Positions 5,173-25,533 of a stretch of DNA of 64,000 bases are shown piece by piece. The stretch is from Deltaproteobacteria bacterium. Lineage in GTDB: Bacteria; Myxococcota_A; UBA9042; DTJE01. Location of the stretch: the NCBI GenBank assembly GCA_029547805.1, contig JAKPOP010000010.1:583675-647674 (forward strand), written 5' to 3'. Position numbers and translations under genes: made by a program. The notes beneath the pieces were generated by a model. It was not told where the DNA came from and did not search any database. It worked only from the letters and a program-made list of their open reading frames with translations. Position 1 is the first letter of the stretch. Each line of letters begins with the position of its first letter.

Positions 5173-5174
5173 CC

Positions 5175-7130
5175 ATGGCGCGCATCGGCGTGTTCGTCTG
5201 TCACTGCGGAACCAACATCGCGGGGGTTGTGGACGTGGCCCGGGTCGCCGAGGCGGCCCGGGGCTGGCCCGACGTGGTCTTCGCCACCGACTACAAGTTC
5301 ATGTGCTCGGACCCGGGGCAGGCCCTCGTGAAGGACACGATCGTCCGGGAGAACCTGGACCGGGTGGTGGTGGCGGCCTGCTCCCCCCGGATGCACGAGC
5401 CGACCTTCCGGAAGGCCTGCGCGATGGCCGGCCTGAACCCCTTCCTGTTCGAGATGGCCAACATCCGGGAGCACTGCTCCTGGGTCCACGAGGACCGGGA
5501 GGAGGCGACCCGGAAGGCCATCGACCTGACCCGGGCCGCCGTGGCGAAGGCCCGCCTGCTGGAGCCGCTCCAGTCCCGGACCGTGCCGGTGACCCAGAAG
5601 GTGCTGGTGGTCGGCGGCGGGGTGGCCGGGATCCAGGCGGCCCTGGACATGGCCAACGCAGGCCTGAAGGTGGTGATGGTCGAGCGGCGCCAGTCCATCG
5701 GGGGCCGGATGGCCCAGTTGGACAAGACCTTTCCGACCCTGGACTGCAGCGCCTGCATCCTGACCCCGAAGATGGTCCAGGTGGCCCAGCACCCGAACAT
5801 CACATTGCACACCTACAGCGAGGTGGAGCAGGTCCGGGGCTTCGTCGGGAACTTCAGCGTGACGATCCGCCGCAAGGCCCGCTTCGTCCGGGAGGACGTC
5901 TGCACCGCCTGCGGGGTCTGCATCGAGAAGTGCCCGAAGAAGGTGGACAGCGAGTTCGAGGAGGGGCTGGGGAAGCGGAAGGCCATCTACCGGGACTTCC
6001 CCCAGGCGGTCCCGGGAAGGCCCGTGATCGACCGGGAGCACTGCACCTACTTCCAGAACGGCAAGTGCCGGATCTGCGAGAAGTTCTGCGAGCCCGGGGC
6101 CATCTTCTGGGACGACCAGGATGCCCTGATCGAGGAGCAGGTCGGGGCCATCGTGGTGGCAACGGGCTACGACCTGCTGGAGCCCGACCGACTGCGGCCC
6201 TGGGGCTATGGCCGGTATCCCGACGTGATGACCGGCATCGAGTTCGAGCGGATCAACAACGCCACCGGCCCCACCGGAGGCCGGATCGTCTGCAAGGACG
6301 GCCGGGAGCCCCAGGCGGTGGCGATCCTGCACTGCATCGGCAGCCGGGACCGGAACCACCGGCACTACTGCAGCCGGGTCTGCTGCATGTACGCCCTGAA
6401 GTTCGCGCACCTGATCCGGGAGAAGACCACGGCGACGGTGTACAACTTCTACATCGACATGCGAGCCTTCGGGAAGGGATACGAGGAGTTCTACGACCGG
6501 CTGCTCCACGAGGGCGTCAAGTTCATCCGGGGCAAGGCGGCCTGCGTCACCGACGAGGCGATGACCCCCGAGGAGCAGGGAAGACTGGTGGTGGTGGCCG
6601 AGGCGACGACGCTGGGAGAGGTGATCCGGGTGCCGGTGGACATGGTGATCCTGGCCTCGGCCATCACGCCCCAGCGGGATGCGCCGGAGGTGGCCCGCCG
6701 GTTCGGCATGGGGCTCAGCCCGGACCAGTTCTTCCTGGAGAAGCACCCGAAACTGGAGCCCTTTGGAACCGCCACCGACGGGGTCTTCCTGGCGGGGGCC
6801 TGCCAGAGCCCCAAGGACATCCCCGACACCGTCGCCCATGCGGCGGCGGCTGCCTCCACGGCCATGTCGCTGGTCTTCCGGGGCATCGTGGAGGTGGAGG
6901 CCCAGACCGCCGAGGTGGACGCCGAGGCGTGCAGCGGGTGCAAGGTCTGCCAGGACGCCTGCCCCTACGGGGCCATCTCGTTCCTGGCCGACCGGAAGGT
7001 GGCCGAGGTGAACGGGGGCCTCTGCAAGGGCTGTGGCACCTGCGTGGCGACCTGCCCCTCGGGGGCCATCCGGGGCAAGGGCTTCACCGATGCCCAGGTG
7101 CTGAGCCAGATCGACGCGCTCTTCGCGTGA
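5175..7130 (+). CDS. hdrA: Heterodisulfide reductase subunit A, electron-bifurcating flavoprotein
   Basis: 651 residues, the usual HdrA size. It has the N-terminal VCHCGTNI segment, an FAD-binding GGGVAGIQAA loop near residue 145, the HdrA signature TLDCSACILTPKM, and an inserted ferredoxin region with CTACGVCIEKCP and an unusual second set (CTYF...CRICEKFC). Two C-terminal [4Fe-4S] motifs follow, CSGCKVCQDACP and CKGCGTCVATCP. HdrA carries the FAD that bifurcates electron pairs from MvhD to ferredoxin and to HdrB. The ATG at 5175 has GGAGG about 7 nt upstream; an ATG at 5169 overlapping the previous stop is also possible. It sits between the HdrD-like gene and mvhD in one operon. Confidence 0.93.
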   Translation: MARIGVFVCHCGTNIAGVVDVARVAEAARGWPDVVFATDYKFMCSDPGQALVKDTIVRENLDRVVVAACSPRMHEPTFRKACAMAGLNPFLFEMANIREHCSWVHEDREEATRKAIDLTRAAVAKARLLEPLQSRTVPVTQKVLVVGGGVAGIQAALDMANAGLKVVMVERRQSIGGRMAQLDKTFPTLDCSACILTPKMVQVAQHPNITLHTYSEVEQVRGFVGNFSVTIRRKARFVREDVCTACGVCIEKCPKKVDSEFEEGLGKRKAIYRDFPQAVPGRPVIDREHCTYFQNGKCRICEKFCEPGAIFWDDQDALIEEQVGAIVVATGYDLLEPDRLRPWGYGRYPDVMTGIEFERINNATGPTGGRIVCKDGREPQAVAILHCIGSRDRNHRHYCSRVCCMYALKFAHLIREKTTATVYNFYIDMRAFGKGYEEFYDRLLHEGVKFIRGKAACVTDEAMTPEEQGRLVVVAEATTLGEVIRVPVDMVILASAITPQRDAPEVARRFGMGLSPDQFFLEKHPKLEPFGTATDGVFLAGACQSPKDIPDTVAHAAAAASTAMSLVFRGIVEVEAQTAEVDAEACSGCKVCQDACPYGAISFLADRKVAEVNGGLCKGCGTCVATCPSGAIRGKGFTDAQVLSQIDALFA

Positions 7131-7143
7131 AGGAGGTGGGCGG

Positions 7144-7602
7144 ATGGGAGATCGCTTCGAGCCCAGGATCGCGGTGCTCTGCTGCAACTGGTGCACGTAT
7201 GCCGGGGCGGACCTGGCCGGCACCTCCCGGATGAAGTACGCGCCGAACGTCCGGCTGGTCCGGGTGATGTGCTCTGGACGGGTGGACCCGGCCTTCGTGC
7301 TCCGGGCCTTTCAGGATGGCGCCGACGGGGTGCTGATCGCCGGCTGCCATCCCGGGGACTGCCACTACATCAACGGCAACCACAAGACGATGCGTCGCTT
7401 CCCGGTGCTCCAGCGGATGCTGCGCCAGTGGGGCATCGAGGAGGGACGCATCCGCCTCGAGTGGATCTCGGCCTCCGAGGGCGACGTCTTCGTCCGGGTG
7501 GTCAACGAGATGACCGAGGCGGTCCGGGCCCTGGGCCCGCTGGACTGGCGGACCCGGGCGGCGATGGTGGTCCCCGAAACGACCCATTCACCGGCGGAGT
7601 GA
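7144..7602 (+). CDS. mvhD: F420-non-reducing hydrogenase iron-sulfur subunit MvhD
   Basis: 152 residues. The motifs CCNWCTYAGAD, MCSGRVDP and CHPGDCHY are those of MvhD, the [2Fe-2S] adaptor that carries electrons from the MvhAG [NiFe] hydrogenase to HdrA. The family is normally about 140-150 residues, so this is full length. AAGGAGG lies just upstream of the ATG, and the gap from the hdrA stop is 13 nt. Its place between hdrA and the hydrogenase subunits is the order expected for an MvhADG-HdrABC complex. Confidence 0.93.
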   Translation: MGDRFEPRIAVLCCNWCTYAGADLAGTSRMKYAPNVRLVRVMCSGRVDPAFVLRAFQDGADGVLIAGCHPGDCHYINGNHKTMRRFPVLQRMLRQWGIEEGRIRLEWISASEGDVFVRVVNEMTEAVRALGPLDWRTRAAMVVPETTHSPAE

Positions 7603-7606
7603 GGCC

Positions 7607-8590
7607 ATGGCGGAAGGAAAACTCCAGTTGGCGATGTACTGGGCGGCCTCCTGCGGGGGCTGCGACGTGGCGGTGCTGGACGTCAACGAGAAGATCCTCG
7701 ACATCGCGGCGGCGGCGGACATCCGCCTGTGGCCCATCGCGATGGACTTCAAGTACCACGACGTCGAGGGCTGGCAGGACGGGGAGATCGACGTCTGCCT
7801 CTTCAACGGGGCGGTGCGCAACAGCGAGCAGGCCTACCTGGCCCGGCTCCTGCGGCGCAAGTCCAGGGTGATGGTGGCCTTCGGGGCCTGCGCCTCCTTC
7901 GGGGGCATCCCGGGCCTGGCCAACCTCCACGACCGGGAGTCGATCTTCCAGGCCGTCTATGGCTACACCGCGTCCACCCACAACCCCGAGGGCACAAGGC
8001 CCCAGACCCGCCTGGAGGTCCCCGAGGGGACCCTGACCCTGCCGGACTTCTTCGACGACGTCTTCGCGCTGCATCAGGTGGTGCCGGTGGAGTACTTCGT
8101 GCCCGGATGCCCGCCGACCCCGAAGACGATCATGACCGCCATCGAGGCCATCGTGACCGGCAACCTGCCCCCCCCGGGGTCCGTCGTGGGGGCCTCGACC
8201 CAGTCGGTCTGCGAGGAGTGCCAGCGGGAGAAGTCCGAGAAGCCCGTGGTCGCTGAATACCACCGGCCCCAGGAGGTCCGGGTGGACCCGAAGCGCTGCC
8301 TGCTGGAGCAGGGGCTCACCTGCATGGGGTCCGCGACCCGGGGCGGCTGCGGGGCCCTGTGCCCGGCGGTGAACATGCCCTGCCGGGGCTGCTACGGCCC
8401 GATGCCCCGGAGCCTGGACATGGGGGCCGACGCCCTGGCGGCGATGACGACGATCCTGGAGGCGGCGGACGAGGAGACGGCCCGGAACAAGACCGGGCGT
8501 CTGGCGGATCCGCTGGGGACCTTCTACCGGTTCACCTTGCCGGTGTCGATGCTGCGCCGGGCTCCGAAGGGGCCGGCGGTGCACTCGTAG
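7607..8590 (+). CDS. mvhG: [NiFe] hydrogenase small subunit (MvhG type)
   Basis: 327 residues. Cys ligands for the proximal cluster are seen in SCGGCD near the N-terminus, GACASFGG and PGCPPTPKT. The medial and distal clusters can be supplied by CEEC and the Cys-dense C-terminal stretch around CLLEQGLTC, GGCGALC and CRGC. There is no twin-arginine signal, so it is cytoplasmic, as expected for group 3 hydrogenases that work with HdrA. It passes electrons from the NiFe site to MvhD. It starts 4 nt after mvhD and is followed by the large subunit after 31 nt. Confidence 0.92.
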   Translation: MAEGKLQLAMYWAASCGGCDVAVLDVNEKILDIAAAADIRLWPIAMDFKYHDVEGWQDGEIDVCLFNGAVRNSEQAYLARLLRRKSRVMVAFGACASFGGIPGLANLHDRESIFQAVYGYTASTHNPEGTRPQTRLEVPEGTLTLPDFFDDVFALHQVVPVEYFVPGCPPTPKTIMTAIEAIVTGNLPPPGSVVGASTQSVCEECQREKSEKPVVAEYHRPQEVRVDPKRCLLEQGLTCMGSATRGGCGALCPAVNMPCRGCYGPMPRSLDMGADALAAMTTILEAADEETARNKTGRLADPLGTFYRFTLPVSMLRRAPKGPAVHS

Positions 8591-8621
8591 AAACGGGCCG
8601 ATCGGGCCCGGGGAGGACGCG

Positions 8622-10085
8622 ATGCAGACGATCACGGTGGACCCCATCACCCGGCTGGAGGGGCATGGGAAGTTCGACATCTTCCTCAACGACGAGGGAG
8701 AGGTCGAGAACGTCTATTTCCAGATCCCCGAGTTGCGGGGGATCGAGAAGTTCTGCGAGGGGCGTCCCGTCGAGGAACTGCCCCGGATCACCCAGCGGGC
8801 CTGCGGGGTCTGTCCGGGTCCCCACCACATGGCCGCCTCGAAGGCCTGCGACGGGGTCTATGGCGTGGAACCGCCCCCGGCCGGCAAGAAACTCCGGGAA
8901 CTCTTCCTGAACGCCCACTTCCTGCACAGCCACATCGCCCACTTCTATGCCCTGGCAGCCCCGGACTTCGTGGTGGGTCCCCAGGCGGACCCGACGACCC
9001 GCCACGTCCTGGGGGTGATCGCGAAGGTCGGCCTGGAGGTGGGCGGACAGGTGATCGCCTCCCGGGCCAAGGCCCAGCGAATCCAGGCCATCCTGGGCGG
9101 CAAGGCCACCCATGCGGTCTGCGGCATCCCCGGAGGCATGAGCAAGGCCCTGACCAGCCCCGAGGAGGTGGCCGAGATCCGGTCACACTGCCGGGACCTC
9201 GTGGAGTTCGGAAAGTTCACCCTGAGGCTCTTCGACCAGGTCGTCCTGCAGAACGCCGCCTACGTGGACCTGATCCTGAACGGCCCCTACACGATGAAGA
9301 CCTACTACATGGGTCTGGTGGACCCCCAGGGACGGGTGACGTTCTACGACGGGACGCTGCGGGTGATCGACGAGGACGGGGCGGAGTTCCTGCGCTTCGA
9401 CCCCCGGCGGTACACGGACCACATCGCGGAGCACGTCGAGCCCTGGTCCTACCTGAAGTTCCCCTACCTGAAGGCCATCGGCTGGAAGGGACTCGTGGCG
9501 GGAAAGGACAGCGGGGTGTACCGGGTGGCGCCCCTGGCGCGGCTCAACGTGGCCACCGGCATGGCGACCCCCGTGGCCCAGGAGGCCTATGAACAGTACT
9601 TCCAGGTCCTGGGTCCCGGGCCCGTCCATGCCACGCTGGCGAACCACTGGGCCCGGGTGATCGAACTGATGTACGCCGCCGAGCGCTGCCTGGAACTGAT
9701 CGAGGACCCGGAGACGACGTCGCCGGAGGTCCGGACGATCCCGACGGGCATCGTCGGCGAGGGGGTGGGGGTCGTGGAGGCCCCCCGGGGGACCCTGTTC
9801 CACCACTACCGGACCGACGACCAGGGCTTCGTCACGCGGTGCAACATGCTGGTGGCCACCGGCAACAACAACGCGGCCATCTGCATGAGCATCCGAGACG
9901 CGGCGAAGGGGCTGATCCGGAAGGGCGTCGAGGTCACCGAGGGCATCCTGAACCAGATCGAGATGGCCTTCCGGGCCTACGACCCCTGCTTCGGGTGCGC
10001 GACCCACTCGCTGCCGGGACAGATGCCGATGGAGGTGCGGATCCTGGACCCCCACCGGGTGGTCCGGCAGACCCTGGTCCGGTGA
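8622..10085 (+). CDS. mvhA: [NiFe] hydrogenase large subunit (MvhA type)
   Basis: 487 residues holding both NiFe-site cysteine pairs: RACGVCPGPHH near residues 60-70 and DPCFGCATH near residues 453-461. After the final His, a tail of about 25 residues remains; it is the expected substrate for the maturation protease encoded next. The protein splits or forms H2 and delivers electrons through MvhG. The combination with MvhD and HdrA classes it as a group 3c (heterodisulfide-reductase-linked) enzyme. No hyp cofactor-assembly genes are in the window. All motif residues are intact, so activity is likely. Confidence 0.94.
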   Translation: MQTITVDPITRLEGHGKFDIFLNDEGEVENVYFQIPELRGIEKFCEGRPVEELPRITQRACGVCPGPHHMAASKACDGVYGVEPPPAGKKLRELFLNAHFLHSHIAHFYALAAPDFVVGPQADPTTRHVLGVIAKVGLEVGGQVIASRAKAQRIQAILGGKATHAVCGIPGGMSKALTSPEEVAEIRSHCRDLVEFGKFTLRLFDQVVLQNAAYVDLILNGPYTMKTYYMGLVDPQGRVTFYDGTLRVIDEDGAEFLRFDPRRYTDHIAEHVEPWSYLKFPYLKAIGWKGLVAGKDSGVYRVAPLARLNVATGMATPVAQEAYEQYFQVLGPGPVHATLANHWARVIELMYAAERCLELIEDPETTSPEVRTIPTGIVGEGVGVVEAPRGTLFHHYRTDDQGFVTRCNMLVATGNNNAAICMSIRDAAKGLIRKGVEVTEGILNQIEMAFRAYDPCFGCATHSLPGQMPMEVRILDPHRVVRQTLVR

Positions 10086-10112
10086 CCGGGCGAGCGTCTC
10101 CGGGGGCGCGCG

Positions 10113-10586
10113 ATGAAGGTGCTGGTGGTCGGCGTGGGGAGCACGATCCGCGGGGACGACGCGGTGGGGCCCGTGCTGGCGATGGAGATGGCGACCCGGT
10201 TTCCCGACCAGTGCGAGGCCCTGGTCTTTGACGGATCGGCCCTGGACCTGCTCGGGTTGATCGGCCCCGAAACGGGATATCATCGGGTGGCCGTGATCGA
10301 TTGCCTGGAGGCAGGAGGGCTCGCCGAGGGGGAGATGGCTCGGGTGCAGTTGTCCGAGGTCCCGGCGGACCTGGTCTCGTCCCATCATGCCGGGATCCGG
10401 GAGACGCTGCACCTGGCCGGGCGGCTTCAGGTGCCGCTCCCCCAGGACCTCCGGTTCTACGGGGTCGGGGTCCGGGATGCCCAGGCCTTCCGGGAGGGCT
10501 TGAGCGCCAGTCTGGCGGCCCGGATCCCGGACCTGGCGACGGAACTGGCCCGGGACCTGGGCCTGCTGCCCCAGGAGGCCCGGTAG
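10113..10586 (+). CDS. Hydrogenase maturation endopeptidase (HycI/HyaD family)
   Basis: 157 residues with the family N-terminus GVGSTIRGDDAVGP, an acidic DGSA segment and an SSHHAGI segment. These supply the Asp and His residues that bind the large-subunit nickel during processing. It would remove the C-terminal tail of the MvhA protein encoded 27 nt upstream once nickel is inserted. Size and gene position are typical. Specificity for this MvhA is inferred from adjacency. Confidence 0.9.
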   Translation: MKVLVVGVGSTIRGDDAVGPVLAMEMATRFPDQCEALVFDGSALDLLGLIGPETGYHRVAVIDCLEAGGLAEGEMARVQLSEVPADLVSSHHAGIRETLHLAGRLQVPLPQDLRFYGVGVRDAQAFREGLSASLAARIPDLATELARDLGLLPQEAR

Positions 10587-15778: not shown

Positions 15779-18121
15779 ATGCGCTTCACCCGCCTGGCCG
15801 TGATGGCCTCCCGCTATCTCTACTGGTCCCCCAGGGCCGCATTTCACACGAAGCATCTGGTCCAGATGCTCGTGTCGCTGCTGGACCCGAACCGCCCGGG
15901 TCATGCCTCGGTGGCCTTCCTGGACCGAAGGAAGCGCATCACCTCCTGGCGAAGCGGGGCCGAGGCCATCGGAGAACTGAAGCGCTACGCCGAGATGCTG
16001 TCCCAGATGGTTCCCGTGCTGGAGACCCGCCATGATGGCGCAGACGAGCTCGCGATGAACCGCTTCACCGCGAACCTCCTCCGCGTGGTGTTCGACAAGG
16101 ACCGCCTGCTGTCCTGGGCCGGGGACCACCTGTTGAACCAGGGCCGGGACGATGAGATGGGGTCGCTGACCCTGATTCGGAAGATCCAGAACCACCCCTC
16201 CCCGGTCCTGGTGGATCTGATCTCGGACTGGAGTCTGGTGGGAAAGAGCCTGACCTGGGCGCCGCTCTGCGTGATCGGCAACGCGTTGCTGAACCTGGAG
16301 GGCCATCCACCCCCCTGGTACACCCCCCCGATCCTGCCGCCGGTGGACGCAACGGAGGCGGCCCAGTGCCTGGAGGAGTTCCTGCTCAAGGAGTGTGACC
16401 GTCTCTTCCAGCGGGTCCGCACGGGCCTCCACCTGGGAACCGCCGCAGTGAAACTGCTGCACCGGGACTTCCAGACGCCCGTCTTCTACTACGCCGAGCC
16501 TGAACACCTCCCGGACCAGCCCGAGGACTACCTGGACCGGACGCGGATCGGGCACGTGGAGACCCTGTGCCGCAGCACCCTCGGGACCGAGGACCCGGTG
16601 GGGTCGGACGTCCAGGGGGCGCTCCTGGAAGGCAACGTCGTGCTGCTCCGACACACCATCCTGGGCAACCAGGCGGTCCAGACCTTCTACCAGGCCCTGC
16701 CGTGGCTTCCACCGGATGCCCAGGACCGGTGGCAGGAGGTGGAACGGGAGGTCTTCTTCCTCTGCGACAAGCTCACCTTCGTCGAGTTCCTGGCGGCCTT
16801 CCGGGTCTACGACATCCTCACCGACCTCGAGATCCCCATGAAGCAGATGGGGCTGTGGGGTGGGACGCTGGACGGAACCGCGAAACTGGCCCGGGCGCTG
16901 CGCCAGTCGGTCGCCTTCGAGGAATCCCGCTCCACGGAGAAGGCCCGGGCCTTCGACCTGGTGAAGCAACTTCGCTGGTGCGTCTCGCGCCTGGAGGCCG
17001 AGATGGTCCGGGTGACCGACGGCGTGATGACCCAGGAGCGGCGCTGGAGGTCGGCGGCCCAGGACACCGGGATCTACTTCGAGCGTGTGATCTCCTCCCG
17101 GGCGATTGCCCCCCTGCGGGACATGAGCCAGAACCTCACGGAGCAGATCTCCTCCTTCCGGGTCTCCGGCGAGGTGGTTCGCCAGGGCAAGGAGCGGGCC
17201 GAACAGTTGCGGACGACCTTCTCCGACGTGAGCCGGGCGCTCGACGCGATGCTGGAAATGGAGCAGCAGGAGGACCGGGAGCGATACGAGCGGACCCAGC
17301 GCGTGCTGGGCTACGGCCTGGCCGCCCTCGCGACCCTGACGGCCTTTCCGCTGGTCGTCGGGGACATGAACTGGGCCGAACTCCAGGAGGTGATCGCCCG
17401 GTGGCCGGGTCCCTTCCAGTGGCTCGGCAACCTGATCTCGGCCATCCATCCCTATCTGGTGCTGGCCAGTCTGTCGGGCGCCCTGGGGGTGATCGGGCTG
17501 CTGCTGTTCGGGTCCTTCTGGAGTTCGCGACACCGGAGGCCTCGTCCGCAGCAGCAGTTCCTGGCCCTCGGCAGGAGACTGAACCGGATGACCCGGGATG
17601 TCGAGGCGATCCTCCCCATCGTCTCCCGGGTCCGCAGCAAGGCCTTCGTCTCCCGCGTCTGGGCCGGCAAGCAGGAGGACGAGGAGGTCCGGCAGGACCG
17701 GGAACGCCTGGACCTGGAGGACCGCAAGGCCGTCGAGGTGCTGCTGGAGGTGGACGACTGGCTGCGGCGCAACGAGGATGGAGCCGCGACGTCGGCCCTG
17801 GACTCCACCACCCGGGAGGTCCTGCGGTTCGTGATCCTGGTGGAACTGATGGACCAGCGCCTGAATCCCTTCCCCCTGCCGCTGGCCTTGAGTGTCTTCC
17901 GCTATGCCTCCCGTCGGTACGTGGCCCGATCGATCGTCTCGGACTACGAGTTCGAGCAGGTGCTGAACGGCTACGGCTACGAGGACTCGGAGGTCGAGGC
18001 CATCGACCGGTGGGTCGAGAAATGGGGCCGGCTGGAGGCACGAGACCTCGTGAAGAAACTCCAGGAACTCGGGGTCTCGGCGCTACATGCCCGGCCTGTC
18101 GAGGCGCCACCCGCCACCTGA
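15779..18121 (+). CDS. Uncharacterised membrane protein with large soluble flanks
   Basis: 780 residues; the family is not recognised. Residues 1-500 are mostly soluble and helical with no catalytic motif seen; a charged, coiled-coil-like region with EQQEDRERYERTQRV runs just before two hydrophobic helices, near 520-540 and 560-585, separated by a short loop. The region after the second helix is again charged (QEDEEVRQDRERLDLED). The overall shape, a big cytoplasmic part with a hairpin of two TM helices near the C-terminal third, recalls CorA-like or scaffold membrane proteins but has no GMN motif. It has its own strong promoter embedded in the upstream kinase gene and is followed by a radical-SAM-type gene. 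Confidence 0.8.
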   Translation: MRFTRLAVMASRYLYWSPRAAFHTKHLVQMLVSLLDPNRPGHASVAFLDRRKRITSWRSGAEAIGELKRYAEMLSQMVPVLETRHDGADELAMNRFTANLLRVVFDKDRLLSWAGDHLLNQGRDDEMGSLTLIRKIQNHPSPVLVDLISDWSLVGKSLTWAPLCVIGNALLNLEGHPPPWYTPPILPPVDATEAAQCLEEFLLKECDRLFQRVRTGLHLGTAAVKLLHRDFQTPVFYYAEPEHLPDQPEDYLDRTRIGHVETLCRSTLGTEDPVGSDVQGALLEGNVVLLRHTILGNQAVQTFYQALPWLPPDAQDRWQEVEREVFFLCDKLTFVEFLAAFRVYDILTDLEIPMKQMGLWGGTLDGTAKLARALRQSVAFEESRSTEKARAFDLVKQLRWCVSRLEAEMVRVTDGVMTQERRWRSAAQDTGIYFERVISSRAIAPLRDMSQNLTEQISSFRVSGEVVRQGKERAEQLRTTFSDVSRALDAMLEMEQQEDRERYERTQRVLGYGLAALATLTAFPLVVGDMNWAELQEVIARWPGPFQWLGNLISAIHPYLVLASLSGALGVIGLLLFGSFWSSRHRRPRPQQQFLALGRRLNRMTRDVEAILPIVSRVRSKAFVSRVWAGKQEDEEVRQDRERLDLEDRKAVEVLLEVDDWLRRNEDGAATSALDSTTREVLRFVILVELMDQRLNPFPLPLALSVFRYASRRYVARSIVSDYEFEQVLNGYGYEDSEVEAIDRWVEKWGRLEARDLVKKLQELGVSALHARPVEAPPAT

Positions 18122-18193: not shown

Positions 18194-20260
18194 ATGGCCT
18201 CCGGGGATCACCGGCCTGCCCGCCTGGTGCTGCTCGAGTGCGTGACCCTGCTCCGACAGCGGGTGGACCGGGCGCAACTGTTCCCGTTCTGGGAAGGCTG
18301 GGCCCAGGACCGGGGGATCCCGGTCCGCTGGGTCTGTGTCGGGGGCCGGGGCGAACTGGAGCCCGCCGGTCAGTCCTGGTTCCGGCCCGTGGTGAACCTC
18401 GAGGAAGACGATGCCCGGCGCCTGTGCGAGGACCTCCGGCGCTGGGGTGCCACGCACATCCTGGCCAACGAGGAACTGGCGACGGAGTGGACCCGGAGGC
18501 TCACCGGGGCGATCCCGGGGATCTCGATCATCGGGGGACTCCGGTCCCCGGAGATGACCGCCTGGACTGATCGCATCCGGGAGGAGGCCGACCGGGCGGG
18601 AACGATGCCCGCCCGGTGGCGCGGCGACTCCGCCTACACCCAGATCGACGTCTGGCAGCGGGAGCGGTGGCTGTCGCGGTGGATCGGCCTCCAGGACCCC
18701 GAGGCCCGGGACGGCCCGGCGGGGCGGCGGGTGGCCGATGTCGCGGAGCCTCGATACGACGCTGAGATGTTCAACGAGGCAGCGACCCGCCTGGAGCCGA
18801 TGATCCGGATCGTGGGGGGAGTCTTCTGCGACTGGACCGCCCCCCTGCGGGACAACCCCGCCTACCGGGGAGTGGACCTCTCGGAGTCCAGCCGAGACTT
18901 CGGCTGCGCCTTCTGTGCCATGCGGACTCCCTCCCCGGCCACCGGCGACCCCATCGACCTCGCAGAACGCCAGTTTCGACGGCTGCTGTCGGCCGGGACC
19001 CGTCCGGCCCGGGACAGCGGGCGCTACGACTTCTACGACATCCGGCTCTTCCTGCGAATCGACGAGTGGGTCGCCCGGGCGACCGCGCTGGGAATTCCTC
19101 CGTCGGAATTCTGCTTCTCTCCCCGGGTGAACCATGTGCTCCAGGCCCGGGATCGCCTCCGAAAGGCCCTGCCGCTCTGCGCGGCCCACGGATACGTGGT
19201 CCGGCTCTTCCGCATCGGGGCCGAGAACGTCTCGGAAGCGGAGCAGGAGCGGTTCAACAAGGGGGTCTCGACAGACCAGATCGAGGAGGCCCTGGCCCTG
19301 TTCCGGGAGTTCGAGTCCCGGTGGCCCGGGACCTTCCAGGCGACCCAGCCCCTGGCCTTCATCACCTTCACGCCCTGGACGACGCTGGACGAGGTCCGGC
19401 TGCTGCTGGAGAAGGCCGTGCGGTGGAGATTTCCTCCCCGGGGCCGATGGCTCTTCTGCACCCTGGAGATGGACCGGGACCAGCCGATCACCGCCCTGGC
19501 CCGGGCCGCCGGGGATCTGGTCGTGCCGCAGTTCGAGGACCCGGCCTTCCTCTACTCGTCGTCGGTGGCGGGGTTCCTCCACCCCTCCCAGGTGGCCTGG
19601 CGGTTCCGAGACCGTCGGGTCGCCACCTACCATGCCGTGCTGGTTCGCTACTGCGCGGCCCTCGAGCGGGCGTTCCCGGACACGGTCTTCCACGGGGACC
19701 CCCTCTATCAGGAGATCCAGGACCGGATCCGGGAGGACGGTGGCCGTGCCGCGACCCCCCTGGCCTTTGCCCAGACCCTGGTTCGGGCCCTCGATGAGGA
19801 CCCGTCGCTGACGGACCCCGGGGACCTCTGGCGCAGGGCCTGTTCCGAACTGGTCCGGCTCGGCCTGTCGGGACCGCCCATGCGCAGTCGGATGACGTGG
19901 CTGATCCGCCGGGTGCTGGAGGCGGACCAGGCGGAGTGGAACGACCTCCATCTGGAGGACCTCCTCCATGACGAGGGTGCCCGGGAGGCGACCCTGCGGC
20001 TGCGGACCCGGGGAAGACCCTGCGCCGTGCGCATGGTGCCCGCCGGGGAGATGGAGGACCCGGACATCCGGTCCGACCGCTTCGCCGGGAAACTGGAGGA
20101 GGCGTTCCCCCAGGACCGGCCCTTCCTGCTGGCCCGGCTGGGCCGACTGTTCCGTGCCCTGGACGCCCTGGTGCCTCGCCATGCGCCGCTGTTCCTGGCG
20201 GACCCGCGGGAGGCGACGGGGACCCCCGTTGCACCGTTGGCGCCCCTTCCGGATGACTGA
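18194..20260 (+). CDS. Radical-SAM/B12-binding-like protein with incomplete cluster motif
   Basis: 688 residues, start at ATG 18194 behind GGAGAC. The N-terminal 120 residues end in ATHILANEE and GISIIGG, resembling a cobalamin-binding Rossmann domain. The middle has YRGVDL followed by RDFGCAFCAM and later FRIGAENVSEAEQERFNKG, the latter a good match to the strand and helix found in B12-dependent radical SAM proteins. The canonical CxxxCxxC needs three cysteines; here the first is Arg, leaving only CAFC. The C-terminal 200 residues are unassigned. It could be a fold relic with a new function or could bind its cluster with another ligand. It follows the unknown membrane protein by 72 nt but seems to have its own promoter. 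Confidence 0.7.
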   Translation: MASGDHRPARLVLLECVTLLRQRVDRAQLFPFWEGWAQDRGIPVRWVCVGGRGELEPAGQSWFRPVVNLEEDDARRLCEDLRRWGATHILANEELATEWTRRLTGAIPGISIIGGLRSPEMTAWTDRIREEADRAGTMPARWRGDSAYTQIDVWQRERWLSRWIGLQDPEARDGPAGRRVADVAEPRYDAEMFNEAATRLEPMIRIVGGVFCDWTAPLRDNPAYRGVDLSESSRDFGCAFCAMRTPSPATGDPIDLAERQFRRLLSAGTRPARDSGRYDFYDIRLFLRIDEWVARATALGIPPSEFCFSPRVNHVLQARDRLRKALPLCAAHGYVVRLFRIGAENVSEAEQERFNKGVSTDQIEEALALFREFESRWPGTFQATQPLAFITFTPWTTLDEVRLLLEKAVRWRFPPRGRWLFCTLEMDRDQPITALARAAGDLVVPQFEDPAFLYSSSVAGFLHPSQVAWRFRDRRVATYHAVLVRYCAALERAFPDTVFHGDPLYQEIQDRIREDGGRAATPLAFAQTLVRALDEDPSLTDPGDLWRRACSELVRLGLSGPPMRSRMTWLIRRVLEADQAEWNDLHLEDLLHDEGAREATLRLRTRGRPCAVRMVPAGEMEDPDIRSDRFAGKLEEAFPQDRPFLLARLGRLFRALDALVPRHAPLFLADPREATGTPVAPLAPLPDD

Positions 20261-20484: not shown

Positions 20485-21429
20485 ATGGCGCGGTTCCTGG
20501 TCATTGGACTCGGCCCCATCGGGTCCCTGGTAGGGGGACGGCTGGCCCGGGCGGGCCACCAGGTCCACGGGGTGGAGCGGAGGCCCGATCGCCGCCATGC
20601 CGCGTCGGAATGTCTGCGGTTGGAGACCCCCGAAGGAACCTTCGGGGTCCGCCTGGAATCGGTGGACGACTCGATTCCCGCGGCCCTGGAATCGGGGTCC
20701 TTCGATGCGACGTTCCTGTGCACCAAGGCCAACGAGGTGGTCGATGCCGCGGGACCGCTGGCGGCGGTGGAACCCGGGGGACCGGTCGTGTGTCTGCAGA
20801 ACGGCTGGGCCGTCGAGGAACCCCTGGTGACCCTGCTGGGGTCGGACCAGGTGATCCGGGGAGTGGTGCACTTCGCCGGGGAGATGCCTGACCCGGGTCA
20901 CGTGCGGCAGACCTTCGCGCACCCGCCCAACTGGGTCGGGGCCATGGGGCCCCGGGGCCCCGTCGCCGCGGAACGGGTGGCGGCGTGGCTCACCGAGGCC
21001 GGCATGGAGACCCGGGCGACGGAGCGGATCGATCTGGAGGTCTGGCGCAAGACCGTCCACCTCTGCATCCTGGCGCCCCTCTGTGCCCTGACCCGGATGA
21101 ACATGAAGGAGGCCCTGGGCCACCGGGAGATCCGGCGCCTGGCCCAGGGACTGCTGACCGAGTGCCTGGAGGTGGGGAGTCGCCTGGGGTACGACTGCGG
21201 CAACGGATTCTTCGAGGCCTCGATGGACTACGTGCTGTCCGCCGGGGACCATCCCCCGTCGATGCTCATGGACGTGATCCGGGGACGCCCCACCGAGGTC
21301 TCCTTCCTGAACGGCAAGGTGGTGGAGGCGGCCGAACGCCTGGGGATGGAGGTGCCGTTGAACCGCGCCGTCACGGCCCTCCTGACGGCCATGGAAAGCC
21401 GGTGGCCCCGGGGATCGGGCCCCTCGTGA
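20485..21429 (+). CDS. Ketopantoate reductase family 2-oxoacid reductase
   Basis: 314 residues. The N-terminal VIGLGPIGSLVGGRLARAG is a dinucleotide-binding loop, and the ApbA/PanE N- and C-terminal domains cover the protein, with a KTVHLCILAPLCALT segment at the domain join. PanE reduces 2-oxopantoate with NADPH, and relatives reduce other branched 2-oxoacids to (R)-2-hydroxyacids. It is the first gene of an operon whose next members are a 2-hydroxyacyl-CoA-dehydratase-family protein, its activator and an acyl-CoA synthetase, so a 2-hydroxyacid dehydrogenase role is at least as likely as pantothenate synthesis. Start chosen at ATG 20485 after the GGAAGGA site, downstream of the promoter. Confidence 0.85.
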   Translation: MARFLVIGLGPIGSLVGGRLARAGHQVHGVERRPDRRHAASECLRLETPEGTFGVRLESVDDSIPAALESGSFDATFLCTKANEVVDAAGPLAAVEPGGPVVCLQNGWAVEEPLVTLLGSDQVIRGVVHFAGEMPDPGHVRQTFAHPPNWVGAMGPRGPVAAERVAAWLTEAGMETRATERIDLEVWRKTVHLCILAPLCALTRMNMKEALGHREIRRLAQGLLTECLEVGSRLGYDCGNGFFEASMDYVLSAGDHPPSMLMDVIRGRPTEVSFLNGKVVEAAERLGMEVPLNRAVTALLTAMESRWPRGSGPS

Positions 21430-21437
21430 GGACGGTC

Positions 21438-22664
21438 ATGGCGAGGCTCGCCTGCACGACGGCACTGCAGGACCGCATGCGCGAGGCCTACCGGGAGGTC
21501 ATCGAGGCCGCTTCGGACCCGGGGCAGCGCGTGGCCTGGTGCAGCAGCGTGGGGCCCGTGGAACTCCTGCGAGCCCTGGGCTTCCGGGTCTTCATCCCCG
21601 AGAACCACGCGGCCATGCTCGGGGCCTCCCGGATGGCCACGGACCTGATCCCCGAGGCGACGGCACTGGGATACTCGCCGGACATCTGTTCCTACCTGAC
21701 CTCCGACATCGGGGCCTTCTGCCGAGGCGTGACGGCCCTCTCCCGGGTGGACCCGTCCTTCCGGGAGGTCCCGCGGCCCGACGTGCTGGTCCACGAGAGC
21801 CAGCAGTGCCGCGAGGTCGGAGACTGGTTCCAGTGGTACGGGGACCGCCTGGGGGTGCCGGTGCTGGGAGTCCCGGCCCCCCGGGCCGTCGAGGAGGTGA
21901 CCCCGGACCTGGTCCAGGCCCTGGCATCCCGGATCGAGGCCCTGGTCGAGCCCCTGGAGGCCATCGCCGGGCGATCCCTGGACCTGGCCCGCCTCCGGGA
22001 CGTCGTCGCCATCTCCCGGGAGACCTCCCGTCGCTGGCAGCAGGTGCTGGCGATGGGGGAGGTCCGTCCGGCGCCCTGGACCTTCTTCGACGCCTGCATC
22101 CAGATGGGGCCGGCGGTGGTGCTCCGAGGGGATCGGAGGGCCCTGGCCCACTACGACCTCCTCCAGGAGGAACTGCGGCATCGGGTCATGGCGGGGGTCG
22201 CCGCGGTGCCGGAGGAACAGGTGCGCCTCTACTGGGAGGGAATGCCCATCTGGGGCCGCCTCCGGGACCTCTCGGAGCGCCTGGCCTCCCTCCGGGCCGC
22301 CGTGGTCGGCAGCACCTACTGCTCCTCGTGGGTCTTCGAGGCCCTGGACCCCGATCGACCCTTCGAGTCGATGGCGCAGGCCGGCCTGGAACTCTTCATC
22401 AGCCGAACCGATCCCGTGAAGGAGCGAATCCTGGAGGAAGAGGCGCGCCGCTACTCGGTATCGGGCATCGTCTTCCACGACGCCAAGACCTGCCCCTACA
22501 ACAGCAACTCCCGTTTCGGGATGCCCCGGCGGCTGACCCGGGATCGCGGCATCCCGACCGTGACGATCCAGAGCGACCTGAACGACCTGCGACTGCACTT
22601 CGACGAGGGAGTGCACCTGGCCCTCGAGGCCTTCGTGGAGCAGTGCCGGGAGGCCATGCCGTGA
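21438..22664 (+). CDS. 2-hydroxyacyl-CoA dehydratase D-component / double-cubane cluster protein
   Basis: 408 residues belonging to the HgdB/FldBC/BcrBC family of iron-sulfur proteins. Conserved-looking cysteines occur in WCSSVGP, ICSYLTSD, SQQCREV, STYCSSW and KTCPYNSNS. Classical dehydratases and benzoyl-CoA reductases use two different such subunits; only one is encoded here, with its ATPase activator directly downstream (GTGA overlap). That single-subunit layout matches the E. coli YjiM/YjiL pair and the double-cubane cluster protein described from Carboxydothermus. The substrate is therefore open: a 2-hydroxyacyl-CoA if a homodimer does the dehydration, or a small molecule if it is a true double-cubane protein. 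It needs low-potential electrons, which the Hdr-Mvh system could supply as ferredoxin. Confidence 0.85.
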   Translation: MARLACTTALQDRMREAYREVIEAASDPGQRVAWCSSVGPVELLRALGFRVFIPENHAAMLGASRMATDLIPEATALGYSPDICSYLTSDIGAFCRGVTALSRVDPSFREVPRPDVLVHESQQCREVGDWFQWYGDRLGVPVLGVPAPRAVEEVTPDLVQALASRIEALVEPLEAIAGRSLDLARLRDVVAISRETSRRWQQVLAMGEVRPAPWTFFDACIQMGPAVVLRGDRRALAHYDLLQEELRHRVMAGVAAVPEEQVRLYWEGMPIWGRLRDLSERLASLRAAVVGSTYCSSWVFEALDPDRPFESMAQAGLELFISRTDPVKERILEEEARRYSVSGIVFHDAKTCPYNSNSRFGMPRRLTRDRGIPTVTIQSDLNDLRLHFDEGVHLALEAFVEQCREAMP

Positions 22665-23461
22665 CGCGACGGAAGCCCGTGCTGGGGGTCGACATCGGGT
22701 CGTCCTACGGAAAGGCGGTGCTGCTGGACCGGGAAGGACGGGTGTTGGCCCGGGCGGTGCGGCCCACGGGGATCGACTTCGCCGGAACCGCCCGGACCCT
22801 GGTCCAGGAGGTGACCGACGGGGGCAGGGTTCCCCCGGAGGCCGTCGAGGTCGTTGCAACGGGCTACGGGCGGCAGGAGGTCCCCGGGGCCATGCGTCAG
22901 GTCACCGAGGTGACCTGCCAGGCCCTGGCGGCATGGCACCTCTTCCGGCGCCCCCTGACGCTGATCGACATCGGGGGGCAGGACACCAAGGTGATCGAGG
23001 TGGACCCCGGGGGCCGACGGCGGTCCTTCCACCTGAACCGCAAGTGCGCTTCGGGCACCGGGGCCTTCCTGGAGGAGATGGCCGGTCGCCTCGGGACCGA
23101 CCCGACCGGCATGGAGCGCCTGGCGGAGGAAGGCCTGGAGGCGGCGACCCTCTCGTCCTTCTGCACGGTCTTCGCCCGCAGCGAACTGCTGGCGCTGGCC
23201 CGCCAGGGACGCTCCCCGGGAGACATCGCCCTGGGAGTCTTCGACGCGGTGGTGCGCCGGGTCCTGGAGATGGCCCGGCCCCAGGGGGAGGTGGCCCTGA
23301 CCGGCGGCGCGGCGCGAGGCGTGCTGGTGCGCCGCATGGAACGAGCCCTGGGACGAACGGTGCTGGTCCCGGAGCATCCCCAGTTCACCGGGGCCCTGGG
23401 GGCCGCATTGCTGGGCCTCCGGGGAGACGGCGACCAGCCCGAAGAGGAGGTGTCCCGGTGA
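22661..23461 (+). CDS. ATP-dependent activator of 2-hydroxyacyl-CoA dehydratase / double-cubane protein reductase
   Basis: 266 residues, GTG start overlapping the previous stop. ASKHA ATPase motifs are plain: GVDIGSSYGKAV (phosphate 1), LIDIGGQDTKVI (phosphate 2) and LTGGAARG (adenosine loop). Two cysteines, in NRKCASGTGAF and SFCTVFA, form the single [4Fe-4S] cluster shared by the homodimer. The protein couples ATP hydrolysis to electron transfer at very low potential into the partner protein encoded immediately upstream. Length matches HgdC/FldI/YjiL-type activators. Confidence 0.9.
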   Translation: MTRRKPVLGVDIGSSYGKAVLLDREGRVLARAVRPTGIDFAGTARTLVQEVTDGGRVPPEAVEVVATGYGRQEVPGAMRQVTEVTCQALAAWHLFRRPLTLIDIGGQDTKVIEVDPGGRRRSFHLNRKCASGTGAFLEEMAGRLGTDPTGMERLAEEGLEAATLSSFCTVFARSELLALARQGRSPGDIALGVFDAVVRRVLEMARPQGEVALTGGAARGVLVRRMERALGRTVLVPEHPQFTGALGAALLGLRGDGDQPEEEVSR

Positions 23462-25533
23462 GCCTCGATGCCCTGTTCCGTCCCCGGACGGTGGCGGTGT
23501 TCGGGGCGACCCCCCGACCGGGGACCATCGGGCACCAGGTGGTCCGCAACCTCGTCGAGTCGGGGTTCACGGGCCAGGTGATCCCCGTGAATCCCAGGGG
23601 CGAGGCGGTCTGCGGCCTGCCGGCGGTGACCTCCCTGGAGGCGGTCCCTGGGGGAGCGGACCTGGCCTCCATCGCCGTGCGGGCCGAGCGGGTCCCGGAG
23701 GTGCTTCGCCAGTGCGGGTCCGCCGGGGTCCGGGCCGCCATCGTCCACTCGGCGGGCTTCGCCGAGGCCGGGCCCCCCGGAGCAGTGCTGCAGGACCAGT
23801 GCCTGGAGATCGCCCGGGAACGGGGAATCCGGTTGCTGGGTCCCAATGCCCAGGGCGTCCAGAACGGCGATCCGGCGGTGCGTCTCTATGCGACCTTCAC
23901 CTTCACGCCGCTGCGGCCGGGTCCGGTATCGATCGTGGCCCAGAGCGGGGGCGTGGCCGAACTGCTGAACCTCCATCTCCGGCGGGCAGGGGTGGGGACT
24001 CGCCTCTATGCAAGCCCCGGAAATGCCGCAGATATCGACATCGCAGACCTGCTGGACGAGGCCTCGATGGATCCGGGCACGGGGGTCGTGCTGCTGCACC
24101 TGGAGGGAGCGGCGGACCCGGCGAGGCTGCTCGGGGCGCTGGTGCGATGCCGGGAAGCGGGGCAGGAGGTGCTGGTGCTGGCCGGCGGGCGTCACGAGGC
24201 GGGCCGGGAGGCCGTGGCCTCCCACACCGGGGCCCTCGCGGCCTCGGGGGGACTGCTGGAGGCCCTCCTGGTCCGGGCCGGTGCCCGGCAGGTCCAGGGG
24301 GCCCGGGAGGCGGTGGACCGGGCGGTGGGCCTGAGCCTCGGACCCCGGGCGACGGGTCGCCGGGTCGCGGTGGTCTGCAACGCCGGCGGGACGGGAATCC
24401 TGGCCCTGGAGGCGGCCCTGGACGCGGGCCTGAGCCCGGCCTGCCTGGAGGACCAGACCCGGAAGCACCTCCGGGAGGGGCAGTCCCCCCTGGCGAGCAT
24501 CGGGACGATTGTCGACCTCACGGCGACGGCGGAACCGCCCCAGGTCGCCTCGGCCCTCGGAGGCGTCCTCTCTGATCCGGGGGTGGACGCCGTGCTGCTG
24601 TCCCTCGTGACGCCCTTCTACCTGGACGAGGTGGCCCTCTGCGGGAGCGTGGTGGAGGCCGCTCGGGGGTCCCGGAAACCGCTGGTCGTGCACCTGATCG
24701 CGAATCCCCGGAGGCCCGATGGGGAACGGGTCCTCCGGGAGGGAGGCGTTCCGACCTACCCCTTCCCCGAGGAGGCCGCCACGGCCCTGTCGGCCCTCGT
24801 GGCCGCCGGGGACCCGAAGGGGCAGTCCCTCGGCACCGACCGGCCCACGGCCATCGGCCCTCGGCCGGCACCAGGGTCCCAGGAAGGCCGCTGGCTGTCC
24901 CTCGAGGAGGCCTTCGACCTGCTGGAGGCCCAGGGGGTGCCCTGCCTGGCTCGCCAGGGGATCCGGAACCCCCGGGACCTGGCCCTTCCGCCATTCCCCC
25001 CGCCCTGGGTCCTCAAGGCCGACCTCCCCGAGGGGGCCCACAAGGCCCGCCAGGGAGCCGTGGTTCGGGGGATTGCATCCTTCGAGGACCTCGCCCGGGA
25101 GGCCGCGAGGCTCCAGGGGCGCTTTCCGGGGCGCCCGCTCCTGGTCCAGCCGGAGGTTGCCATCGGGATCGAACTGGCCCTGGGCCTCCTCCGGGAACCC
25201 ACGGGCCTGTGGCTGGCGATGGCCGGTCCGGGCGGCCCGGCGATCGAGGAGCGACGGGGCGTGCGCTTCCGCCTGTGCCCCCTGTCCCTCGACGAGGCCC
25301 GGGAAGCCCTGGGCATGGGCGGGTCCGGGGCGGATCCCCTGCCAGGGGTCCCGCTCGAGGTGCGGGAGGCCCTGGCCGGGGCCTGGATGACCCTCTCCCG
25401 GCTCCCGTCCTTGGTCCCGAGCCTCCGGGAACTGGACCTGAACCCCCTGGTCTGGACCCCGTCGGGCCTGGCGGCGGTGGATGTCCGGGTCCGGGTCCTG
25501 CCTCCACCCGGCACCGATGCGCCGGGTCCCTGA
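23458..25533 (+). CDS. ADP-forming acyl-CoA synthetase (fused alpha-beta)
   Basis: 691 residues, GTG start with a 4-nt overlap to the activator gene. Order: CoA-binding Rossmann domain (AVFGATPRPGTIG, VNPRG), succinyl-CoA-ligase-like domains (AQSGGVAELL, then SHTGALA with the phosphorylated His, and VVCNAGGTG), and an ATP-grasp beta part from about residue 475 ending in LRELDLNPLVW. These enzymes convert acyl-CoA, ADP and phosphate to the acid, CoA and ATP, a substrate-level energy-conserving step in anaerobes; the reverse activates acids. Translational coupling with a dehydratase-family pair suggests it handles the product or substrate of that pathway. The acyl specificity cannot be read from sequence. 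Confidence 0.9.
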   Translation: MSLDALFRPRTVAVFGATPRPGTIGHQVVRNLVESGFTGQVIPVNPRGEAVCGLPAVTSLEAVPGGADLASIAVRAERVPEVLRQCGSAGVRAAIVHSAGFAEAGPPGAVLQDQCLEIARERGIRLLGPNAQGVQNGDPAVRLYATFTFTPLRPGPVSIVAQSGGVAELLNLHLRRAGVGTRLYASPGNAADIDIADLLDEASMDPGTGVVLLHLEGAADPARLLGALVRCREAGQEVLVLAGGRHEAGREAVASHTGALAASGGLLEALLVRAGARQVQGAREAVDRAVGLSLGPRATGRRVAVVCNAGGTGILALEAALDAGLSPACLEDQTRKHLREGQSPLASIGTIVDLTATAEPPQVASALGGVLSDPGVDAVLLSLVTPFYLDEVALCGSVVEAARGSRKPLVVHLIANPRRPDGERVLREGGVPTYPFPEEAATALSALVAAGDPKGQSLGTDRPTAIGPRPAPGSQEGRWLSLEEAFDLLEAQGVPCLARQGIRNPRDLALPPFPPPWVLKADLPEGAHKARQGAVVRGIASFEDLAREAARLQGRFPGRPLLVQPEVAIGIELALGLLREPTGLWLAMAGPGGPAIEERRGVRFRLCPLSLDEAREALGMGGSGADPLPGVPLEVREALAGAWMTLSRLPSLVPSLRELDLNPLVWTPSGLAAVDVRVRVLPPPGTDAPGP

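Follow-up and report, generated by a model that had tools for sequence, protein, structure and literature searches.

A four-gene operon in the window, the 64-kb stretch of DNA analysed here as a whole, might encode a route that leads from an aromatic 2-oxoacid to an aryl-enoyl-CoA with neither oxygen nor an ammonia-lyase and that serves polyene priming in the lineage of the window; we give this reading a probability of about 0.45. As read from sequence, the operon probably starts from the keto acid of an aromatic amino acid and yields a cinnamoyl-type CoA ester.

All four open reading frames are intact (Table 1), and their Pfam and NCBIfam assignments are clear-cut. The sequence ggaaggag precedes the ATG of the PanE gene, the dehydratase gene starts 8 nt after its end, and overlaps of 4 nt connect the dehydratase gene with the activator gene and the activator gene with the synthetase gene, in agreement with the coupling proposed in the first-pass annotation. 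In profile searches, the PanE protein scored 186.5 bits with TIGR00745 (cut-off 141), in addition to Pfam ApbA/ApbA_C, and the activator scored 190 bits with TIGR00241 (cut-off 125). N106 and K189 of PanE do not vary in 39 neighbours of the PanE cluster, and the cysteine pair of the activator bridging the [4Fe-4S] cluster (C129 and C168) is invariant in 76 of 76 neighbour activators. The synthetase has the CoA_binding_2, Succ_CoA_lig and ATP-grasp_5 domains of an ADP-forming acyl-CoA synthetase with invariant H256 (the phospho-histidine) and E216, and its nearest solved structures are 4xyl and 8wzu. There is no enoyl-CoA reductase gene in the operon, and the genes flanking it on its contig (C4) in the window's own genome gave no Pfam matches. 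Mvh-Hdr genes are located in the same window and would be a plausible source of low-potential ferredoxin for the activator.

Table 1. Genes of the four-gene operon and their positions in the window.
Feature	Coordinates	Strand	Profile matches and start
PanE/ApbA-family 2-oxoacid reductase, proposed arylpyruvate reductase	20485..21429	+	PF02558 + PF08546; TIGR00745
Alpha-only 2-hydroxyacyl-CoA dehydratase family protein	21438..22664	+	PF06050 (HGD-D) 176.6 bits
ATP-dependent activator (BcrAD/BadFG, CoA_E_activ)	22661..23461	+	PF01869 143.8 bits; TIGR00241; GTG start
ADP-forming acyl-CoA synthetase (fused alpha + beta), proposed aryllactate-CoA ligase	23458..25533	+	PF13380, PF13607, PF13549, PF19045; GTG start

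To our knowledge, all biochemically described 2-hydroxyacyl-CoA dehydratases are heterodimers. In the superfamily tree, the window protein falls into a clade with a support of 1.0 on the side of the catalytic alpha subunits (HadB-type), and the deepest split (0.999) separates this side from the beta subunits and the double-cubane proteins (DCCP). The fold search with the predicted model identified HadB (3o3m_A) as the best solved relative, with a TM-score of 0.89 as compared with 0.73–0.76 for DCCP. The residues S37, E55, C84, C124 and C352 are kept in the dehydratase, where the HadB-like active-site set (S37, E55, C84, C117 and C346), that is, the serine, the glutamate and the three cluster cysteines of HadBC and FldBC, finds its equivalents. 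DCCP and its reductase DCCP-R (PDB 6eno, 7yyl) resemble the operon in having a single activator and no second PF06050 subunit. The likeness to the double-cubane protein or YjiM that had been proposed at first was rejected on the tree, the fold search and the double_cubane equivalog score of 42.6 bits (cut-off 350).

The lack of a partner subunit, by contrast with that likeness, was confirmed. No second (beta) PF06050 subunit is encoded in the operon, and three unrelated genomes, all draft assemblies, contain exactly one PF06050 match each (G012, with a completeness of 92%, G090 and G096); on these counts, a partner encoded elsewhere was rejected as a general requirement. The refuting case named in the first-pass annotation, a heterodimeric clade with its partner elsewhere, applies only in part: the protein sits on the alpha side of a superfamily of heterodimers, but its own clade is partnerless. 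Tree placement and gene content indicate that the alpha-only clade has lost the beta subunit, and the dehydratase probably works without it, as a homodimer. Two extra cysteines, C35 and C295, are invariant and specific to the clade, and C295 matches the position of a cysteine in DCCP; with one of them at a beta/DCCP-like position, they would adapt the single subunit to the missing beta cluster.

The order of the four genes is identical in four relatives (G001, G012, G011 and G005), as found by tblastn, and occurs once in an Acidobacteria contig (L095), so that the conservation anticipated in the first-pass annotation is borne out and exceeds chance. Another relative (G008) has the first three genes in order before the contig ends, and PanE was not found beside the dehydratase in G004 and G010. 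The alpha-only clade comprises at least 567 loci, including Geobacter, Desulfobacterales, Acidobacteria, Lokiarchaeota and Thermoplasmatota. Among 86 loci, the dehydratase gene is accompanied by an activator in at least 68, an ADP-forming synthetase in at least 51, PanE in at least 40, IorA in at least 18, a thiolase in at least 17, PaaK and Had in at least 12 each, and Oah in at least 9. These counts are lower bounds because the gene caller missed the four genes in some runs, namely in the window slice, L072 and L035, for which tblastn was used instead. Recurrent neighbours include indolepyruvate:ferredoxin oxidoreductase (IorAB), PaaK, genes of beta-oxidation and of the benzoyl-CoA pathway, and 2-hydroxyacid enzymes (PanE and FAD-type). 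The locus L091 carries PanE fused to an AOR part, which is divergent yet nearer to AOR than to BamB; the AOR beside the cassette in L121 (Thermoplasmatota) is likewise closer to AOR (386 versus 204 bits) and was rejected as a BamB-type class II reductase.

This set of neighbours fits a sequence of reactions from arylpyruvate via aryllactate and aryllactyl-CoA to aryl-enoyl-CoA. PanE would reduce arylpyruvate to (R)-aryllactate, which the ADP-forming synthetase might convert to aryllactyl-CoA, provided that it works in the ligase direction. Low-potential ferredoxin and ATP would charge the activator, from which a single electron would pass to the [4Fe-4S] cluster of the dehydratase; the dehydratase could then remove water by the ketyl-radical mechanism of HadBC and FldBC to give cinnamoyl- or 4-coumaroyl-CoA. 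We infer the dehydration of an (R)-2-hydroxyacyl-CoA from PanE and the other 2-hydroxyacid and 2-oxoacid enzymes among the neighbours. We found no description of an alpha-only dehydratase, of the four-gene operon, or of this logic from 2-oxoacid via 2-hydroxyacid and CoA ester to enoyl-CoA in the open-licence literature, in line with the suggestion that the pathway is undescribed.

The operon shares with HadBC/HadI (PDB 3o3m, 4eht) and FldBC/FldI the alpha-subunit fold, a dedicated ATP-dependent activator and the logic of a 2-oxoacid reductase, but differs in the missing beta subunit and the two extra cysteines. The Fld and Had gene sets include a family III CoA-transferase and an LDH-type reductase, which are replaced in the window by the ADP-forming synthetase and PanE. 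Class I benzoyl-CoA reductases (BcrCBAD, BzdNOPQ, MbdNOPQ) belong to the same superfamily and often share gene neighbourhoods with the cassette, but they have two dehydratase-type and two activator genes, whereas the cassette has one of each and, unlike them, also occurs in genomes without the ring-cleavage hydrolase.

The link to polyenes comes from the genomic context. In a sister genus (g5), the operon sits within an aryl-polyene-like cluster; in the window's genome, the cluster is found on a different contig (C15). Both clusters have a gene content of the aryl-polyene type, with ketosynthases, an ApeI-like dehydratase, 4HBT, acyl- and glycosyltransferases, LolA, MMPL and DUF3261, as assigned by Pfam on representatives, with MMPL, the dehydratase and other genes of C15 named by similarity. 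PAL/TAL-type ammonia-lyases that supply aryl-polyene and flexirubin starters resemble the operon in yielding a polyene starter of the class proposed here, a derivative of cinnamic or coumaric acid, but they eliminate ammonia from the amino acid, where the operon would combine oxo acid reduction with radical dehydration. In a search for starter genes that covered ammonia-lyases (PF00221), the window's genome has no match besides HutH. Among 17 relatives with TIGR04072, the marker of this cluster, the dehydratase and the non-histidine (second-type) ammonia-lyase appear mutually exclusive, which suggests that the dehydratase route has displaced PAL/TAL as starter supply. We therefore propose the operon as a substitute source of aryl starters, whose product would most likely prime the aryl-polyene-like FAS-II cluster in place of the ammonia-lyase of the relatives. 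In the family f1, the dehydratase tracks TIGR04072, with both in seven genomes, the dehydratase only in one and neither in five; because these genomes are related, the co-occurrence may represent a single event. The product of the TIGR04072 cluster could also be a non-aryl polyene.

Other explanations have to be weighed against this proposal. In the window's organism, the operon might instead belong to a fermentative, Stickland-like branch unconnected with polyenes, in which the reduction of arylpyruvate via aryllactate and cinnamoyl-CoA to arylpropionate disposes of electrons. Fld and Had pathways run as such reductive branches, IorAB and PaaK are neighbours at other loci, and IorAB-type genes adjoin an ADP-forming synthetase-like gene on another contig (C23) of the window's genome. 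We consider this branch unlikely, in view of the missing enoyl-CoA reductase, the position of the operon inside the polyene-like cluster of the sister genus and the exclusion pattern against the ammonia-lyase. A non-aromatic substrate, such as a 2-hydroxyacyl-CoA from a branched-chain or other 2-oxoacid, would suit HadB, a 2-hydroxyisocaproyl-CoA enzyme, as the closest solved relative and the varied 2-oxoacids taken by PanE-family reductases. The recurrence of IorAB, PaaK, benzoyl-CoA-pathway and aryl-polyene-like neighbours points instead to aryl compounds and makes a non-aromatic substrate improbable.

The dehydratase and its activator might also act together as an ATP-dependent aryl-CoA (benzoyl-CoA) reductase in minimal form, in which a single alpha-type subunit and a single activator take the place of the four subunits of BcrCBAD or BzdNOPQ. 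Had, Dch and Oah lie near the cassette in L091 and L077, where they score above their cut-offs, and at other loci; the closest structural matches of the model include MbdO and BzdO (TM 0.84–0.86), and G090 has no other PF06050 gene. Nevertheless, this reading is disfavoured and holds little probability: the scores with the BcrB and BzdO models fall well short of the cut-offs (116 versus 487 and 69.5 versus 449 bits), the placement of MbdO as sister lacks support (0.144), 2-hydroxyacid enzymes recur as partners, and next to the cassette L041 already contains two activators as well as BzdN/O-like genes. The best match to Oah in the window's genome reached 49 bits against a cut-off of 464, so that we rejected benzoyl-CoA catabolism in this organism and regard a biosynthetic use of the operon there as likely. 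It seems highly improbable that the orphan relies on a beta subunit encoded by a separate dehydratase set. The window's genome does hold a complete alpha/beta/activator set on contig C10, and most f1 relatives with the orphan have such a set, too, but a second PF06050 gene is absent from G012, G090 and G096, and the orphan comes with an activator of its own and with the two clade-specific cysteines.

Taken together, the initial interpretation is partly supported. In other lineages, the cassette might supply cinnamoyl-CoA to beta-oxidation towards benzoyl-CoA. More broadly, and only tentatively, we suggest that an alpha-only, homodimeric radical subfamily in many bacterial and archaeal phyla converts arylpyruvate to aryl-enoyl-CoA, that it displaced the lyase in this Myxococcota family, and that in strict anaerobes without Pad enzymes it could provide the missing steps by which phenylalanine, phenylpyruvate or phenylacetate is turned into benzoyl-CoA. 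In Desulfococcus multivorans, the step from phenylpyruvate or phenylacetate to benzoyl-CoA is unexplained without PadB and PadEFGHI, matching genes are induced, and a cluster at 2.77 Mb responds to phenylpyruvate (PMC5109826); the alpha-only cassette is a concrete candidate for this step in sulfate reducers. The operon would also offer a lyase-free way to cinnamoyl-type starters, and the absence of the beta subunit from so widespread a clade, if true, would revise what ketyl-radical dehydration of 2-hydroxyacyl-CoA requires.

All four open reading frames of the operon were confirmed in the sequence with the coordinates and overlaps that the first-pass annotation had assigned, and Pfam or NCBIfam confirmed each of the four gene families. 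Intact residues include N106 and K189 in PanE, C129 and C168 in the activator, and H256 and E216 in the ADP-forming synthetase. In the dehydratase, the intact residues S37, E55, C84, C124, and C352 aligned with S37, E55, C84, C117, and C346 of HadB, which we take from the HadBC structure to be catalytic residues or cluster ligands.

Positions of the features discussed, in the window unless a locus or contig is named
Feature	Position	Remarks
Hdr/Mvh-like set	4021-10586	CCG/FeS protein, HdrA-like flavoprotein, MvhD, small and large NiFe hydrogenase subunits
Large protein	15779-18121	immediately upstream of operon; no Pfam match
Large protein	18194-20260	immediately upstream of operon; no Pfam match
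PanE	20485-21429	+ strand
Dehydratase (PF06050)	21438-22664	+ strand
C35 of dehydratase	about 21540	
C295 of dehydratase	about 22320	
Activator	22661-23461	+ strand
ADP-forming acyl-CoA synthetase	23458-25533	+ strand
Tandem family III CoA-transferase	56488-58866	792 aa; two PF02515 stretches
Second PF06050 set, same genome	L034:8273-11315 (contig C10)	beta, alpha, activator; overlapping genes
PanE-AOR-type fusion, Holophagaceae	L091:16221-19142	973 aa; PanE plus aldehyde:ferredoxin-oxidoreductase-type domain; beside dehydratase
Second TIGR04072-like cluster, same genome	L235 (G000:C6:46500-64392)	319 bits; ketosynthase, two crotonase-like genes

The dehydratase had been read as a double-cubane-type protein, an assignment that the phylogeny and the fold contradict. 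In a FastTree phylogeny built from 85 PF06050 proteins, the alpha-subunit side held all 41 members of the family in a single clade (support 1.0, branch 0.78), and all beta subunits and the double-cubane cluster protein (DCCP) fell together on the opposite side (support 0.999); as a candidate sister group, MbdO joined the family with a support of only 0.144. The AlphaFold model (mean pLDDT 82.5) matched HadB best (TM 0.89), followed by MbdO and BzdO (0.84–0.86), compared with 0.73–0.76 for DCCP. The other part of the claim, a single subunit without a partner, stood: whole-genome searches found exactly one PF06050 member in G012 (92% complete), a Holophagaceae genome (G090), and a Sterolibacterium genome (G096), and although incompleteness weakens each single assembled genome, the pattern is nonetheless common to unrelated ones. 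The isolate Geobacter argillaceus carries three paralogues of the dehydratase type, its remaining PF06050 match being one short fragment. The window's genome has a separate, complete heterodimeric set, whose alpha subunit is 35% identical to the operon dehydratase; this set is absent in G012. Relatives of that alpha subunit are present in many genomes of the phylum. At a probability of roughly 0.9, the dehydratase belongs to the dehydratase/reductase superfamily as an alpha-only protein served by its own activator. We infer that it works as a homodimer. It quite probably removes water from a 2-hydroxyacyl-CoA. Two extra cysteines, C35 (present in 100% of 80 homologues) and C295 (in 99%), have no counterpart in the remaining alpha subunits of the tree, and the C295 register (VVGxxxC) corresponds to a cysteine site in DCCP and in many of the beta subunits, BzdN among them; this may point to an altered cluster environment.

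Conservation of the four-gene order was borne out by tblastn, the order being identical in G001 (75–88% identity), G012, G011, and G005; in G008 the contig ends after PanE-dehydratase-activator. Dehydratase, activator, and synthetase occur together in G004 and G010 (both of sister genus g4) and in G027, with no PanE found beside them (loci L042 and L011 are short contigs), and G053 has only PanE and dehydratase. Both upstream proteins lacking Pfam matches keep their position in the sister species G001 (L035). A scan of genome contigs found at least 567 relatives of the dehydratase, the best 80 being 49–88% identical, in Myxococcota, Desulfobacterota, Acidobacteria, Pseudomonadota MAGs, Ignavibacteria, Elusimicrobia, Planctomycetota, Lokiarchaeota, and Thermoplasmatota.

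Protein clustering of 86 neighbourhoods counted the activator at 68 loci, the ADP-forming synthetase at 51, PanE at 40 (plus 6 with a second PanE cluster), an AMP-forming ligase at 29, crotonases and IorA at 18 each, IorB and thiolase at 17 each, PaaK, Had, and an ACT-domain protein at 12 each, and AOR and Oah at 9 each. A FAD-linked 2-hydroxyacid-dehydrogenase-type protein, annotated by eye, replaces PanE in L106 and some other loci. The gene order at the Holophagaceae locus L091 is Had (over the TIGR03201 cut-off), Dch (over the TIGR03189 cut-off), activator, dehydratase, synthetase, thiolase, enoyl-CoA hydratase, 3-hydroxyacyl-CoA dehydrogenase, the PanE-AOR-type fusion, and another thiolase. 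The cluster c7 thiolase retains the QAC-T and GHPQ-PT motifs and the C-terminal cysteine motif. AOR also adjoins PanE at Lokiarchaeota and Thermoplasmatota loci (L082, L121). The simplest reading of these neighbourhoods is that arylpyruvate would be converted via aryllactate and aryllactyl-CoA to aryl-enoyl-CoA, whose hydration, oxidation, and thiolysis would give benzoyl-CoA and acetyl-CoA; an aryl substrate for the dehydratase is more likely than not. Low-potential ferredoxin is possibly supplied by the window's Hdr/Mvh-like set. The window also encodes a tandem protein of the family III CoA-transferases, the enzymes responsible for substrate activation in the Fld and Had pathways.

A gap has been published for Desulfococcus multivorans, which is reported to lack PadB and PadEFGHI, induces IorAB, has genes for converting phenyllactate to phenylpyruvate, and grows on phenyllactate; its phenylacetate/phenylpyruvate-induced cluster encodes a TRAP transporter, CoA ligase, dehydrogenase, hydratase, and thiolase, and the step to benzoyl-CoA was left unclear (PMC5109826). 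TRAP-type genes, the dehydratase cassette, and a CoA ligase co-occur at three of our loci (L097, L113, L134), with a thiolase in the first two. We propose that the induced hydratase, dehydrogenase, and thiolase would use cinnamoyl-CoA as substrate. A phenyllactyl-CoA dehydratase was invoked independently for a benzene degrader, with a singular FldB-like gene noted (PMC13416013).

Benzoyl-CoA ring cleavage is unlikely in the window's own genome because no Oah exceeded the cut-off (best 49 bits versus 464). In genus g5 (L036-L038), the operon sits between a phosphopantetheinyl transferase/ACP block, named by eye, and ketosynthases, within a cluster that encodes KS domains, an ApeI-like dehydratase, LolA, MMPL, DUF3261, 4HBT, and a B12-radical SAM gene belonging to TIGR04072. 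Its double-KS gene has a 61% identical counterpart on contig C15 of the window's genome, accompanied by a glycosyl-/acyltransferase, 4HBT, MMPL-like, and DUF3261 genes, with neither lyase nor operon beside it.

In the comparison headed DISPLACEMENT, TIGR04072 (E <= 1e-60) occurred in 17 of 90 relatives. Seven belong to the window's family (G000, G001, G004, G005, G008, G011, G012), and all seven have the dehydratase and a single PF00221 lyase of 640–660 bits, which in the window's genome is identified as HutH by a score above the NCBIfam cut-off. None of the other ten carries the dehydratase; a PF00221 lyase at about 460–525 bits is present in eight of these, that of G013 scoring under the HutH cut-off. 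The lyase shares a contig with TIGR04072 in G013, G046, and G047, the order in G046 being acyltransferase, lyase, 4HBT, LolA, MMPL, DUF3261, TIGR04072 (G046 and G047 named by eye). Two genomes, G060 and G080, are ambiguous; Fisher's p is 1.6e-4 without them and 2.3e-3 with them, for a comparison picked post hoc that ignores kinship, and the family pattern may be one single event. TIGR04072 is named as a lipid-biosynthesis radical SAM protein, related anammox and Desulfotalea FAS-II clusters include a phenylacetyl-CoA-ligase-like gene (PMC2649909), and Desulfotalea produces polyunsaturated hydrocarbons; the cluster product could thus be an aryl polyene or a polyene of some other kind. At a little under even odds, the product of the dehydratase route primes a polyene in the window's lineage.
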